A stretch of 64,000 nt of DNA from a virus, in the IMG/VR virus record IMGVR_UViG_3300042544_001590, positions 1 through 64,000 of that record; one strand, given 5' to 3'. The translations under genes were made by a program, and so were the position numbers. Every line of letters begins with the position of its first letter. Within the stretch, counting starts at the first letter, position 1. Below the pieces are notes generated by a model, which was not told where the DNA came from, made no database searches, and saw nothing but the letters and a program-made list of their open reading frames with translations. This document shows positions 18,729-62,855 of the stretch, one piece after another.

Positions 18729-18756
18729 TCTTTAAAAACTAGAATACAATAATTTC

Positions 18757-18955
18757 CAATGATCGCTTCGGCAGCATCACAACATTGCCAGAACCTCCCT
18801 CTACCATTCACTTGGCAAGGAGACTGGCGGGATCGAGAAATGGAGCCTTCGGGTGTGCGGAAAAAGTCAGTAATGACAGGCATAAATTCCATATATCCCC
18901 AAACTCGGATGCTGAAAAGGTGGGCGCACACCGTTCCGAAGCGATCACCTTTTTA
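18757..18955 (+). ncRNA. Structured non-coding RNA driven by the motif
   Basis: A motif copy ends in TACAAT at 18745-18750. No gene follows at 6 nt, but a ~200-nt segment with a perfect 12-bp closing helix does: 18760-18771 pairs with 18936-18947 (TGATCGCTTCGG / CCGAAGCGATCA). Inside it GGTGTGCG (18852-18859) pairs with CGCACACC (18925-18932), TTGCCA (18785-18790) with TGGCAA (18823-18828), and GTCA-GTAA-TGAC forms a hairpin. It ends CACC-TTTTT, a likely terminator tail. An open frame from 18759 (65 codons) has no protein-like character and is rejected. No known RNA family is recognised. Confidence 0.65.
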
Positions 18956-18957
18956 AT

Positions 18958-19101
18958 ATGGACAAGAAAGTAAAAATTCATAAATTTTGGATACCTGCAA
19001 CATCTACTGTTGGGGTATCAAGAGATAGGCTTTTCGTTGCAAAGGCTGATTATGATAGAGTGATAAAGCGTATTAAAGAACTTGAAGAAAAACATGATTA
19101 A
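18958..19101 (+). CDS. Small basic hypothetical protein
   Basis: 47 residues (MDKKVKIHKFWIPATSTVGV...), ending in a short charged helix. It begins right after the ncRNA's T-run and overlaps the phosphoesterase start by 8 bp. Protein-like composition supports it. Confidence 0.55.
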   Translation: MDKKVKIHKFWIPATSTVGVSRDRLFVAKADYDRVIKRIKELEEKHD

Positions 19102-20280: not shown

Positions 20281-20601
20281 ATGAATGGATACTTGGGAGA
20301 ATTTGAAGTGGATATGGAAGACACGCCATACAAGGATTATGATAAATCCGATTGGATGGTGGAATATATCCAAATGTATGGAGGTATTGATGGTAGCCAT
20401 CACAAGGATTGGGTGATGGATCAATGCATCCGTATTTGGAGTGGTTCAGAAGTGATTGTTAAGGAAGCTCGCTGGAAAGATGGAGAGCGAGAGTATTCGG
20501 AATTTAGAATCAATGTCGGAGAACCCACCAAAAAATATGAAAAATTGGTGGAGGATACCGAAGAAGAAGGATATGAATGGAATCAAGGAATAGCACCTTA
20601 A
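20281..20601 (+). CDS. Hypothetical protein
   Basis: 106 residues, acidic, Trp/Tyr-rich. The upstream motif is a variant (AAAAAATAGACTATAAT) with a 6-nt spacer. The stop is the TAA of the following motif copy. Confidence 0.7.
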   Translation: MNGYLGEFEVDMEDTPYKDYDKSDWMVEYIQMYGGIDGSHHKDWVMDQCIRIWSGSEVIVKEARWKDGEREYSEFRINVGEPTKKYEKLVEDTEEEGYEWNQGIAP

Positions 20602-20616
20602 AAACTAGAATACGAT
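20598..20616 (+). promoter_or_regulatory. Orphan copy of the motif facing the TnpB-like gene
   Basis: TTAAAAACTAGAATACGAT, but no gene follows at the usual distance. The nearest ATG (20618) opens only MPTG and stop. The 3' end of the minus-strand TnpB-like gene begins 18 bp further on. This copy has probably lost its gene or now reads antisense into the nuclease gene. Confidence 0.6.
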
Positions 20617-20634
20617 TATGCCAACAGGATAAAA

Positions 20635-22017
20635 TTATCCAAAATCTGAGTAACCACTAACAAGTGATTTCTCAGATTTCAGACTAAAACAACTCCATCG
20701 ACTAAAATCATAGTCCTTGAAGAGAAACCTTAATTCGTTCAGTTTCTTATTATCTCTCAGATATTCATGAATGCCTTTGTAACCAATATTCTTAGGGTTA
20801 TAGTCCGATAGAATTGAATTCCATCTCTCTTTTATCAGACCCCTATTAATCTTTGGATATAAGACATCCACATCTGAAAATTCTTTACGCTTTTTGATAT
20901 AGCGATTTAAAAACACATGGCAACGGCGAGCAATTTCTAATGCTGCCGCAATGCTGTCGGTTTCCTCTGGATGATCAAGACATCCAACGGTGGAAGAATA
21001 CGCACATATAATCTCTTGGTTTTTGATACCAAGAATGTTAAGACGCTTAATGAGGTTTTGTGAAAATTTTAAACGATTCCAAGAGTTATTAAGGAGTCTA
21101 TTTAGCTTACGTCCTTTATTGTGGTCTTTAGAAGACATTGTAAGCTTCTCAAGACCCACACATTCCACTTTATAATATTTACAGAGATTTGATATGGATT
21201 TGGCAATTTCTACAACCTCGTGATCCTTTTTATTCTTACTATACGTCTCATTCAGCTTGGTAAGATCATAAACACTCTTATGGATGATAGTATCATCATT
21301 GAAATCCCTGATTGTAAATGCGATGTAATTGGGATTTAAATCCAATCCTGTGATTCTATTTTCAATAAATTGGTGTTCTTGTTCCATTAAGACAGATTCA
21401 TCAAAAGTAATATAAATATAATTATTATCTAATTTATAAGTGATCGGGGTGGAATTAAATTCAAAATACGATTGTAACTTTTCAAGCATCTTCCATCTGG
21501 AATTTGAAGTATTTAATTTCAAATTATAATGATCATTTTTAGTGCGTTTGAATATAATTTGTTTATTTATAATATCTAATTTTAATTTTCTATTACCGAG
21601 GGGTTCGTTCCGACCACCATTAAAAAAAGCTGGTCGGCTGTTTTTAATATTATTAAATTCTTCTTTAGTAATTATGCCTTTATTAAAACGTTTCCACTGA
21701 TTAAGTGATCCAAATGTTGTTTTGGTTTGTTTACACTCTTTAGCGGATTTAAAGAGAGCGGAAGCATCTCCAATTTGTGCTGCAAGGATGCTGGCATCAA
21801 CCAAATCATAATTAACATTGTAAGAACTCTTGATTTTTCTGGTGGCGTGGGTGATATCGTGTTTTTCCTTTTTGAAAATATTGAAAGCAATTCTTTTGAT
21901 CTTGTTGCATTCCTTGAGGAATGGTGCAAGATCGGAATCACATTCATATTTGACTTTGAGAGTAGTCACATAAGTATTTAGTATATAACACGTTATTTTT
22001 TGAAATAGTGTTGACAT
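20635..22017 (-). CDS. TnpB/OrfB-like RuvC nuclease
   Basis: 460 residues on the minus strand. The RuvC triad is intact: GLDLNPNYIAF (Asp ~226), VECVGLEKLTM (Glu ~290) and ETDSIAAALEIARR (Asp ~354). This order and spacing match TnpB/IS605 OrfB and Cas12-type RuvC domains. The CxxC zinc-ribbon usually found between the Glu and last Asp motifs is absent (CAYSSTVGCLDHPEE instead). A ~80-residue C-terminal extension is also unusual. No TnpA transposase and no obvious terminal hairpins accompany it. It is AT-rich and the only large minus-strand gene in the accessory region, so it was probably acquired. It may be an RNA-guided nuclease or a homing-type element. Confidence 0.75.
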   Translation of the reverse strand: MSTLFQKITCYILNTYVTTLKVKYECDSDLAPFLKECNKIKRIAFNIFKKEKHDITHATRKIKSSYNVNYDLVDASILAAQIGDASALFKSAKECKQTKTTFGSLNQWKRFNKGIITKEEFNNIKNSRPAFFNGGRNEPLGNRKLKLDIINKQIIFKRTKNDHYNLKLNTSNSRWKMLEKLQSYFEFNSTPITYKLDNNYIYITFDESVLMEQEHQFIENRITGLDLNPNYIAFTIRDFNDDTIIHKSVYDLTKLNETYSKNKKDHEVVEIAKSISNLCKYYKVECVGLEKLTMSSKDHNKGRKLNRLLNNSWNRLKFSQNLIKRLNILGIKNQEIICAYSSTVGCLDHPEETDSIAAALEIARRCHVFLNRYIKKRKEFSDVDVLYPKINRGLIKERWNSILSDYNPKNIGYKGIHEYLRDNKKLNELRFLFKDYDFSRWSCFSLKSEKSLVSGYSDFG

Positions 22018-37070: not shown

Positions 37071-37250
37071 ATGGCTAATAAAAAAACAAGGGCAAGTCGG
37101 GCAAGAGGATGGTGCAGCACACTGGATGAGCAAACCAATGGCAACAAAATCTTCAAGGGAGAGATTTGTGATACTGCATGGAACGCGAAAGCATCCAACA
37201 AGCGAGCGCGAAAGGTCTATGGTAGGATATCACAACAAGGCAAGGACTGA
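37071..37250 (+). CDS. Small basic protein
   Basis: 59 residues, very basic (NKKTRASRARGWC ... NKRARKVYGR), a candidate nucleic-acid-binding protein. The last base overlaps the next ATG (TGATG). Confidence 0.6.
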   Translation: MANKKTRASRARGWCSTLDEQTNGNKIFKGEICDTAWNAKASNKRARKVYGRISQQGKD

Positions 37251-43660: not shown

Positions 43661-43688
43661 CTTTTAAAAACTAACACACAATAGCTTT

Positions 43689-43761
43689 GTTCTCTCAGGG
43701 GGTGATCTCCCCTTTCTCCGAGATTCCGTAGCATGGCAGTATAAATGGAGACGGAGAGGAC
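43689..43761 (+). ncRNA. Small structured RNA driven by the motif
   Basis: The motif copy TTAAAAACTAACACACAAT ends at 43682. Counting the usual 6 nt predicts a start at 43689, exactly where GTTCTCTC begins to pair with GAGAGGAC (43754-43761). Inside are a GGGG-TGATCT-CCCC hairpin and TCTCCG (43715-43720) pairing with CGGAGA (43752-43757). The last helix competes with the closing one, so two folds are possible. No ORF starts at the expected ATG position. Confidence 0.6.
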
Positions 43762-57900: not shown

Positions 57901-58557
57901 ATGACAACAATTGAATTTTGCAGCAAATACTCTCTTAGTGAAATGTGTGAGGAAGGACGGAATTTCGCTTTGAGTCTTGAAACAATGTCTCAAGTTTGGG
58001 AAAATTGTAGAAATCCGAGTTGGCTTTTCTGGATTCTCGACAAATGCAAGCCGCTGGATAAGGAACAATCCGTGAGATTGTCCATTGCATTTGCGGAAAC
58101 TTGTCTTATTAATGTTCCCGATGGAGAAACTCGCCCCAAACTTGCGATTGAAGCCTCAAAAGCATGGCTTGATAATCCATGCGAAGAAACAGAGTTAGCA
58201 GCAACATCAGCAGCAGAGTCAGCATCAGTAGCAGCATCAGCAGCATGGTCAGCACGGTCAGCAGCAGAGTCAGCAGCACGGTCAGCAGCATGGTCAGCAT
58301 GGTCAGCACGGTCAGCAGCACGGTCAGCAGCAGAGTCAGCAGCATGGTCAGCAGCAGAGTCAGCAGCATGGTCAGCAGAGTCAGCAGCAGAGTCAGCAGC
58401 ACGGTCAGCAGCACGGTCAGCAGCATGGTCAGCACGGTCAGCACGGTCAGCAGCAGAGTCAGCAGCATGGTCAGCAGCAGAGTCAGCAGCACGGTCAGCA
58501 GCACGGTCATCGCAATGCAATACGATACGGGAAATGATTTCAAACCCCTTCGGTTAA
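57901..58557 (+). CDS. Imm-5-like protein with long Ser/Ala repeat tail
   Basis: 218 residues. Residues 1-95 (MTTIEFCSKYSLSEMCEEGR ... WENCRNPSWLFWILDKCK ... KLAIEASKAWLDNP) resemble putative immunity proteins of the Imm-5-like group. Residues ~100-205 are a low-complexity run of SAA/WSA/ESA/RSA units that would form a long, regularly spaced helix. The motif variant has TAAGAT with a 9-nt spacer (ATG at 57901). Confidence 0.7.
   Translation: MTTIEFCSKYSLSEMCEEGRNFALSLETMSQVWENCRNPSWLFWILDKCKPLDKEQSVRLSIAFAETCLINVPDGETRPKLAIEASKAWLDNPCEETELAATSAAESASVAASAAWSARSAAESAARSAAWSAWSARSAARSAAESAAWSAAESAAWSAESAAESAARSAARSAAWSARSARSAAESAAWSAAESAARSAARSSQCNTIREMISNPFG
58198..58510 (+). repeat. Short-period CAG/TCAGCA repeat tract inside the gene
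   Basis: About 310 bp built from units such as GTCAGCAGCA(T/C)G and GTCAGCAGCAGA. All three frames on both strands stay open across it, a by-product of the repeat. Copy number probably varies by slippage or recombination. Confidence 0.9.
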
Positions 58558-59642: not shown

Positions 59643-59717
59643 GCGCTTGTAGCTCAGTGGTTAGAGCGAGCCTCTCATAAAGGCTGGGTCGATGGTTCAA
59701 TCCCATCCGAGCGCACC
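59643..59717 (+). tRNA. tRNA-Met(CAU)
   Basis: Acceptor GCGCTTG/CGAGCGC (one T-G), D-arm GCTC/GAGC, anticodon arm AGCCT-CTCATAA-AGGCT (anticodon CAT), T-arm GATGG-TTCAATC-CCATC, ending ACC without the final A. Its first base directly follows the TAGAAT of a motif. A CAU tRNA-Ile with lysidine is an alternative identity. Confidence 0.8.
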
Positions 59718-59737: not shown

Positions 59738-59814
59738 GGATGCGTAGCTCAACTGGATAGAGCAATTCCCTTCTAAGGAATAGGTTGTGGGTTCAAATCC
59801 CGCCGCGTCCACCA
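59738..59814 (+). tRNA. tRNA-Arg(UCU)
   Basis: Acceptor GGATGCG/CGCGTCC, D-arm GCTC/GAGC, anticodon arm ATTCC-CTTCTAA-GGAAT (anticodon TCT, reads AGA), T-arm GTGGG-TTCAAAT-CCCGC, discriminator A and CCA. Directly abuts the TAGAAT of a motif. Confidence 0.85.
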
Positions 59815-62648: not shown

Positions 62649-62659
62649 ATTAAGATTTA

Positions 62660-62826
62660 GCTACCAATACAACGCCGGAGCCGCTGCGGAGCGGAGTCCC
62701 CCGCAAAGGGACATATAAAAAAGCTTTTGTCGTTCGATTCCCGGATGCATACGGGATAGAGCAAGAGGACTAGCTATCCTTGGACAAGACGAAAGCGGAG
62801 GGTTCGAAACCTTCCTCGGGCTTCCT
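62660..62826 (+). ncRNA. Structured RNA region with degenerate tRNA-like element(s)
   Basis: A motif (TAAGAT) precedes a gene-free stretch of helices: CCGCT/AGCGG, GTCCC/GGGAC and TCCCG/CGGGA. The right half (about 62,742-62,826) is tRNA-like: a D-arm-like ATACGGGATAGAGC, an anticodon-like stem GAGGA-CTAGCTA-TCCTT, a long variable region and a T-arm GAGGG-TTCGAAA-CCTTC. This recalls a class II tRNA (Ser/Leu), but the acceptor is imperfect. Probably decayed tRNAs or an unknown RNA. Confidence 0.4.
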
Positions 62827-62855
62827 TTTCTTAAAAACTAAACCAGAATAACACC

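Follow-up and report, generated by a model that had tools for sequence, protein, structure and literature searches.

A candidate family of orphan structured RNAs in uncultured T4-like phages

Introduction

The structured noncoding RNAs GOLLD and ROOL, which occur in phages and prophages and are often located near tRNA genes, have no known function, and GOLLD is often longer than 800 nt (PMC12286853). For phage T4, a review described rnaC and rnaD as small stable RNAs of unknown biological role, knew of no small trans-acting regulatory RNA with a characterised function and suggested the genomes of T4-related phages as a source of trans-acting RNA candidates (PMC3014915). The rnaC and rnaD genes (species 1 and 2 stable RNAs) are located within a tRNA cluster, at positions 70908-71171 of NC_000866. 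ROOL is also far larger than ~190 nt; raiA and other orphan noncoding RNAs from comparative genomics, which were recognised by covariation and belong to a similar size class, are bacterial chromosomal.

Here we analyze an RNA locus in a 64,000-base stretch of viral DNA (the window, which covers positions 1-64000 of a virus record of 207,489 bases; Table 1). This RNA is a new family, but its kind, that of structured phage ncRNAs with orphan status, is known. It is of the same kind as GOLLD and ROOL, which are far larger, and shares with the raiA-type RNAs its recognition by covariation, but unlike any of these it has no Rfam match. It resembles 6S RNA in length and in having a closing stem; however, 6S RNA is one long stem with a central bubble, whereas the new RNA is branched, with a probable pseudoknot, and again lacks an Rfam match. 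The likeness to rnaC and rnaD is that of small RNAs of T4-like phages, one pair being encoded inside a tRNA cluster and the new RNA, in two relatives (L070 and L078), ~0.3 kb from tRNA genes. The T4 RNAs differ in length (139 and 119 nt) and fold, rnaC having a T-arm-like hairpin, and the covariance model of the new family (R1, see below) found nothing at E<=10 in the 69-74 kb region of T4.

Across Rfam 15, including 6S, RNase P, tmRNA, GOLLD, ROOL, riboswitches, group I and II introns and HEARO, no match above the gathering threshold was found in the RNA, and the sub-threshold matches (E 0.3-5) pointed to no consistent, credible family. Neither ARAGORN nor Rfam detected a tRNA or tmRNA at the locus, which, together with the Rfam results for 6S and RNase P, confirms the initial annotation in seeing none of these four patterns.

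Source phage and distribution of the RNA

Its genes mark the source as an uncultured T4-like phage: the major capsid protein is of T4 type (Pfam Gp23, E = 6e-84; ~33% identical to cyanophage gp23), and a T4-type RNA ligase, a metallophosphoesterase and a thioredoxin-like protein are among the products encoded near the RNA. No close relatives were found among 50,697 phage records.

The RNA ligase search returned, apart from distant phages that lack the RNA, nothing but identical copies of it (L002, L003). The phosphoesterase search led to five contigs (L051-L055) with the RNA in the same place, at 75-80% identity, and further phages were found with a DNA pattern derived from the conserved P3 hairpin. 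In total, nine distinct full-length sequences were identified on 23 contigs, all from uncultured T4-like phages. R1 assigned 170-232 bits to each of the nine variants and 11 bits to the next best sequence. The RNA was single-copy in 13/13 positive records, and R1 found no second copy in the rest of the genome beyond the window. Where the phosphoesterase locus has diverged to <=61% identity, R1 detected no RNA; in more distant relatives, the thioredoxin-like gene directly precedes the phosphoesterase gene and the RNA is absent.

Searches of Rfam, INPHARED, PLSDB and GTDB yielded no relatives outside uncultured T4-like phages. With blastn, three variants against INPHARED and one against PLSDB gave nothing credible, and the first GTDB pattern scan gave 0 matches; a single Synechococcus hairpin from the second scan matches P3 only (10 bits) and was dismissed as chance. 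A scan of IMG/VR with the closing-helix pattern produced 27 matches, in which nhmmer found no homology to the RNA.

Table 1 Features of the RNA locus (window coordinates).
Feature	Positions	Strand	Remarks
Motif AAAAACTAGAATACAAT, probable phage promoter of the RNA	18734-18750	+	82 copies in window
ncRNA	18751-18953	+	R1, 224 bits; 15-16 pairs with two-sided changes
5' leader	18752-18759	+	UUCCAAU, seen also just upstream of group-2 copies (alignments)
65-codon open frame	18759-18956	+	Rejected as gene
P1 5' strand UGAUCGCUUCGG	18760-18771	+	Pairs with 18936-18947; 4/12 pairs two-sided
P2 5' strand	18772-18778	+	7 pairs, 100% paired in 9/9, 2 two-sided
P3 arm	18787-18828	+	Most conserved part; two pairs with two-sided changes
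P3 base	18787-18791/18824-18828	+	
P3 CUCC/GGAG	18795-18798/18819-18822	+	Invariant
P3 CYA/URG	18804-18806/18813-18815	+	
Pseudoknot 5' strand GGGA	18829-18832	+	Probable H-type; partner UCCY 18896-18899
P4 5' strand CGRG	18834-18837	+	A-U to G-C two-sided change in L051/L054
P5 5' strand	18840-18844	+	Pairs with 18888-18892; 3/5 pairs two-sided
P6 hairpin, UUCG tetraloop	18845-18854	+	G-U to C-G two-sided change
P7 hairpin, GNRA tetraloop	18866-18877	+	GUAA; GCAA in L062
P5 3' strand	18888-18892	+	Pairs with 18840-18844
Pseudoknot 3' strand UCCC	18896-18899	+	Partner GGGA 18829-18832
P4 3' strand CYCG	18904-18907	+	Pairs with 18834-18837
P2 3' strand	18908-18914	+	Pairs with 18772-18778
P8 hairpin GGUG-GGCGCA-CACC	18919-18932	+	
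P1 3' strand CCGAAGCGAUCA	18936-18947	+	Pairs with 18760-18771
U-run after P1	18950-18954	+	Sequence; possible terminator in window phage

Conserved secondary structure

The structure was scored on an alignment (A3) of nine sequences, with 55 pairs. When the GGGA/UCCY pseudoknot was included, 95.8% of the cells were paired and 15 pairs showed two-sided changes; with an alternative pseudoknot, the respective values were 93.5% and 16/55. In the latter version, the 16 two-sided pairs compare with 7.9 +/- 1.8 in shuffles; the covariation score was 0.252 vs. 0.097 in shuffles. Not one of 500 shuffles reached the two-sided-pair value of either version, although this control overstates significance because the nine sequences are related; they are also few in number, and part of the structure had been worked out on the same sequences. 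Under a control that keeps the relatedness, 14 of the 19 structure pairs in which both columns vary were paired in all nine sequences, whereas among 1198 further column pairs with complementary bases in the window, only 8.4% were. When partners were shifted by one to three columns, 0-3 two-sided pairs were left over both versions (1-3 with the alternative pseudoknot), and RNAalifold recovered, from the alignment alone, most of the same helices, with 14 two-sided pairs. As judged by eye, the two-sided changes arose on more than one branch, several being involved. Across the structure there are 20 G-U cells and no A-C cells, and therefore the plus strand is the RNA. These observations show a conserved base-paired structure with covariation, as sought in a structured trans-acting ncRNA and as proposed for checking in the initial annotation, and indicate that the fold is preserved by evolution in uncultured T4-like phages.

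Individual helices provide examples. One P5 pair occurs as GC, UA, AU and GU, and the helix as a whole switches from AUGGA/UCCAU to GAUGA/UCAUC in L051/L054 and to AUAGA/UCUAU in L061/L078. In P1, UGAUCG/CGAUCA is replaced by UGACAU/AUGUCA in L054, and pairing in P8 is kept as GUUG/CAAC in L062 and as GGUU/GACC in L066, L068 and L070; the alignment of P7 is imperfect in L051/L054. P1 itself is the perfect 12-bp closing helix of the initial annotation, and it was found exactly as described there, but the perfection is limited to the window and near copies, L051/L054 having 10 pairs and a 2x2 mismatch.

The GGGA and UCCY segments are pairable in 9/9 sequences, the sole variation being C or U opposite G, with no two-sided change; they probably form a compact H-type pseudoknot around P4, with an A-rich loop 3. 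An 8-bp pseudoknot, GGUGUGCG (18852-18859) with CGCACACC (18925-18932), is perfect in the window and was rejected, a 4-bp version of it being paired in only 68.6% of cells; an RNase P-like topology was dropped along with it and with the lack of an Rfam match.

The folding energy of the RNA region is -68 kcal/mol (z = -3.68), a value attained by none of 200 dinucleotide shuffles, and ~0.8% of random 206-mers from the window reach the same z. Among family members, z ranges from -1.2 to -3.7, with most relatives at only -1.2 to -2.1. Thermodynamic stability alone is thus unremarkable in most members and would have been too little to make the case. The region has 52% GC, the window 41%.

We take the RNA to extend from the end of the motif to the U-run, with a conserved core at 18760-18947. 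The CACC-UUUUU end noted at the outset is present in the window but is not conserved across the family (four U in L062 and no comparable end in L061, L066, L068, L070 or L078), and an intrinsic terminator is, for this reason, not established. Similarly, the claim that no gene follows the motif applies to the RNA, which is itself non-coding, but not to the sequence beyond it, where a 47-aa ORF begins at 18958 and the metallophosphoesterase gene at 19094.

Coding potential of the 65-codon frame

The open frame that spans the RNA has its ATG 8 nt past the motif and its stop 1 nt ahead of the next ATG, an arrangement that would suit a small protein gene. However, its openness is unremarkable (the shuffled body was open in 15% of trials), in-frame stops break it in 8/8 other family members, its codon score (-0.105) is like that of wrong frames (average -0.113), 65-codon stretches taken from real genes averaging 0.087, and neither Pfam nor PHROG offers a match. 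A small protein gene is therefore hardly conceivable here and is refuted for the RNA family. Coding by this frame, which the initial annotation had set against its own proposal of a new phage ncRNA, thus falls away, and the proposal is supported by this rejection together with the covariation.

Genomic positions and relocation

The RNA occupies two non-homologous loci with different downstream genes. In group 1 (the window, L051-L055, L062-L065, L067, L069, L075 and L079), it is upstream of the phosphoesterase gene, with 0-1 small gene between. In group 2 (L061, L066, L068, L070, L072, L073, L077 and L078), it follows a 56-aa gene, the window counterpart of which is at 37071-37226, gene order being otherwise largely shared; even neighbouring group-2 phages differ in what comes next. 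About 230-190 bases upstream of the RNA in L061, a tRNA-like gene remnant stands ahead of the motif, and at this site L070 and L078 have tRNA-Ser and tRNA-Cys.

At the nucleotide level, the window matches group 2 over the RNA alone (18763-18944, 86-90% identity), whereas orthologous coding DNA is mostly 65-79% identical. Within group 1, the window RNA is 92% identical to that of L062 and 77% to that of L054, with the matched L054 coding DNA around the RNA mostly 76-93% identical to that of the window. It follows from this homologous block limited to the RNA, and from the mismatch between RNA and coding identity, that the RNA moves or is exchanged as a unit; the 82 copies of the promoter-like motif would be a plausible substrate for recombination of this kind.

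The promoter-like motif

The motif AAAAACTARNNYANRNT occurs 82 times in the window (0.05 expected), always on the plus strand, at sites from 7578 to 63897. For a slightly narrower pattern, the next ATG is exactly 6 nt after the motif in 56/73 copies, and tRNA-Met(CAT) at 59643 and tRNA-Arg(TCT) at 59738 (both on the plus strand) begin directly after it. The repeated motif is probably the phage's own promoter; if so, the flush position of the tRNAs implies that transcription starts at or next to the motif end, at ~18751 for the RNA. Shine-Dalgarno sites were found for 8/62 genes vs. 8.4 expected, i.e. without enrichment. The overall pattern would fit a promoter specific to the phage that yields near-leaderless mRNAs, or else a start signal of another type. 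A Pfam query for a T7-type polymerase (RNA_pol) was empty, and the positive control was equally silent.

In L062-type phages, the RNA lacks a motif of its own and comes after a 59-aa gene that has one; in group 2, the 56-aa gene ahead of the RNA has the motif in L061, L070 and L078. The RNA of these phages would then have to arise through processing, or else be driven by a promoter that escaped notice.

Possible functions

Overall, we consider a phage-encoded, single-copy, trans-acting structured RNA to be the best explanation, with a probability of roughly 0.75. Because the downstream genes differ between members, a role in cis is unlikely and action in trans is likely, and the RNA probably works as a free RNA during infection. 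It would be transcribed from the plus strand behind the promoter-like motif, fold into a compact domain closed by P1 and be released by termination in the window phage, or be processed from a longer transcript where there is no U-run. The invariant P3 arm and the P8 hairpin would be presented to a partner, for which the RNA could serve as a scaffold or decoy during host takeover; this partner is most likely to be a protein or ribonucleoprotein, either of the host or of the phage. The elaborate fold and the conservation of P3 beyond the need for pairing suggest a binding partner, although for protein or ribonucleoprotein binding as the mode of action we see about even odds. With its defined fold, covariance model, nine variants and relocation history, the candidate would allow probes, mutants and pull-downs to be designed at once.

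Among the alternatives, an antisense regulator, i.e. a base-pairing small RNA in a structured scaffold, could use the conserved stretches modelled as unpaired (the P2-P3 interval and the inside of the P3 arm) to pair with targets; this is unlikely given that typical small RNAs expose a seed, whereas conservation here resides mostly in a fold that is elaborate and probably includes a pseudoknot.

A cis-acting leader or riboswitch for the next gene is less probable still. In the window, L051, L054 and L063, a small gene, the metallophosphoesterase gene or both follow the RNA closely, a proximity that makes a leader role possible in those group-1 phages, and an aptamer-like pseudoknotted fold is plausible. 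However, in group 2 the RNA precedes unrelated genes that vary even between neighbouring phages, so that there is no common downstream gene; nor is there a conserved terminator (the U-run is not conserved), a sequestered start site or any other common expression platform, or an Rfam riboswitch match above threshold.

We regard a ribozyme, or what is left of a mobile RNA or self-splicing intron, as improbable, too. The conserved block ends with the RNA, its position changed between lineages, and the pseudoknot and GNRA loop resemble parts of catalytic RNAs, but no gene is interrupted, the flanks are intergenic in all contexts, Rfam yields no match to group I or II cores, HEARO or a known ribozyme, and the relocation is explicable by recombination between the promoter-like repeats.

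Similarly doubtful is a variant of the trans-acting role whereby the RNA acts on the translation machinery and shuts off host translation by binding either ribosomes or mRNAs with Shine-Dalgarno sites. Within the invariant P3 arm are GGAG and ACCUCC, the latter being the core of the anti-Shine-Dalgarno sequence in 16S rRNA; if this variant held, phage mRNAs, which mostly start ~6 nt past the motif and lack a Shine-Dalgarno sequence, would escape the shut-off. However, the two segments pair with each other in the present model, and the host itself may not rely on Shine-Dalgarno sites.

Finally, that the RNA guides the divergent TnpB-like protein encoded 1.7 kb away, a class of proteins that use structured guide RNAs, is next to inconceivable, as the RNA and the nuclease are neither linked nor found together in the relatives: R1 detected no RNA in records that encode an orthologous protein (L046-L049, full records G006-G009), and conversely the 3.5 kb beyond the RNA in L054 and L063 contain no such ORF.

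Other features of the window

At 62657-62830 (plus strand), a further motif copy is followed by no convincing ORF, and the region, which is closed by TAGCTA repeats and contains T-loop-like GTTCGATTCC and GGGTTCGAAACC, is another ncRNA candidate, perhaps comparable to T4 rnaC; the single-sequence fold of 62657-62783 is not significant (z -1.2). At 43683-43760 (plus strand), a hairpin-rich stretch of ~78 nt, folding no better than shuffles, separates a motif copy from the next ORF. The gene at 58180-58520 (plus strand) contains a long run of GTCAGCAGCA-type tandem repeats.

The TnpB-like ORF (20635-22017, minus strand; 460 aa) interrupts an array of plus-strand genes and shows RuvC-like motifs by eye; its only TnpB-related NCBIfam match is sub-threshold (E 0.01), and it has relatives in four other viral contigs. 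Directly before its 3' end, at 20600-20635 (plus strand), is a motif copy behind which a frame of just 4 codons is open. This copy is probably a promoter that the insertion separated from its gene, because in L054 the counterpart of a 209-aa gene (window 22060) is found directly there.
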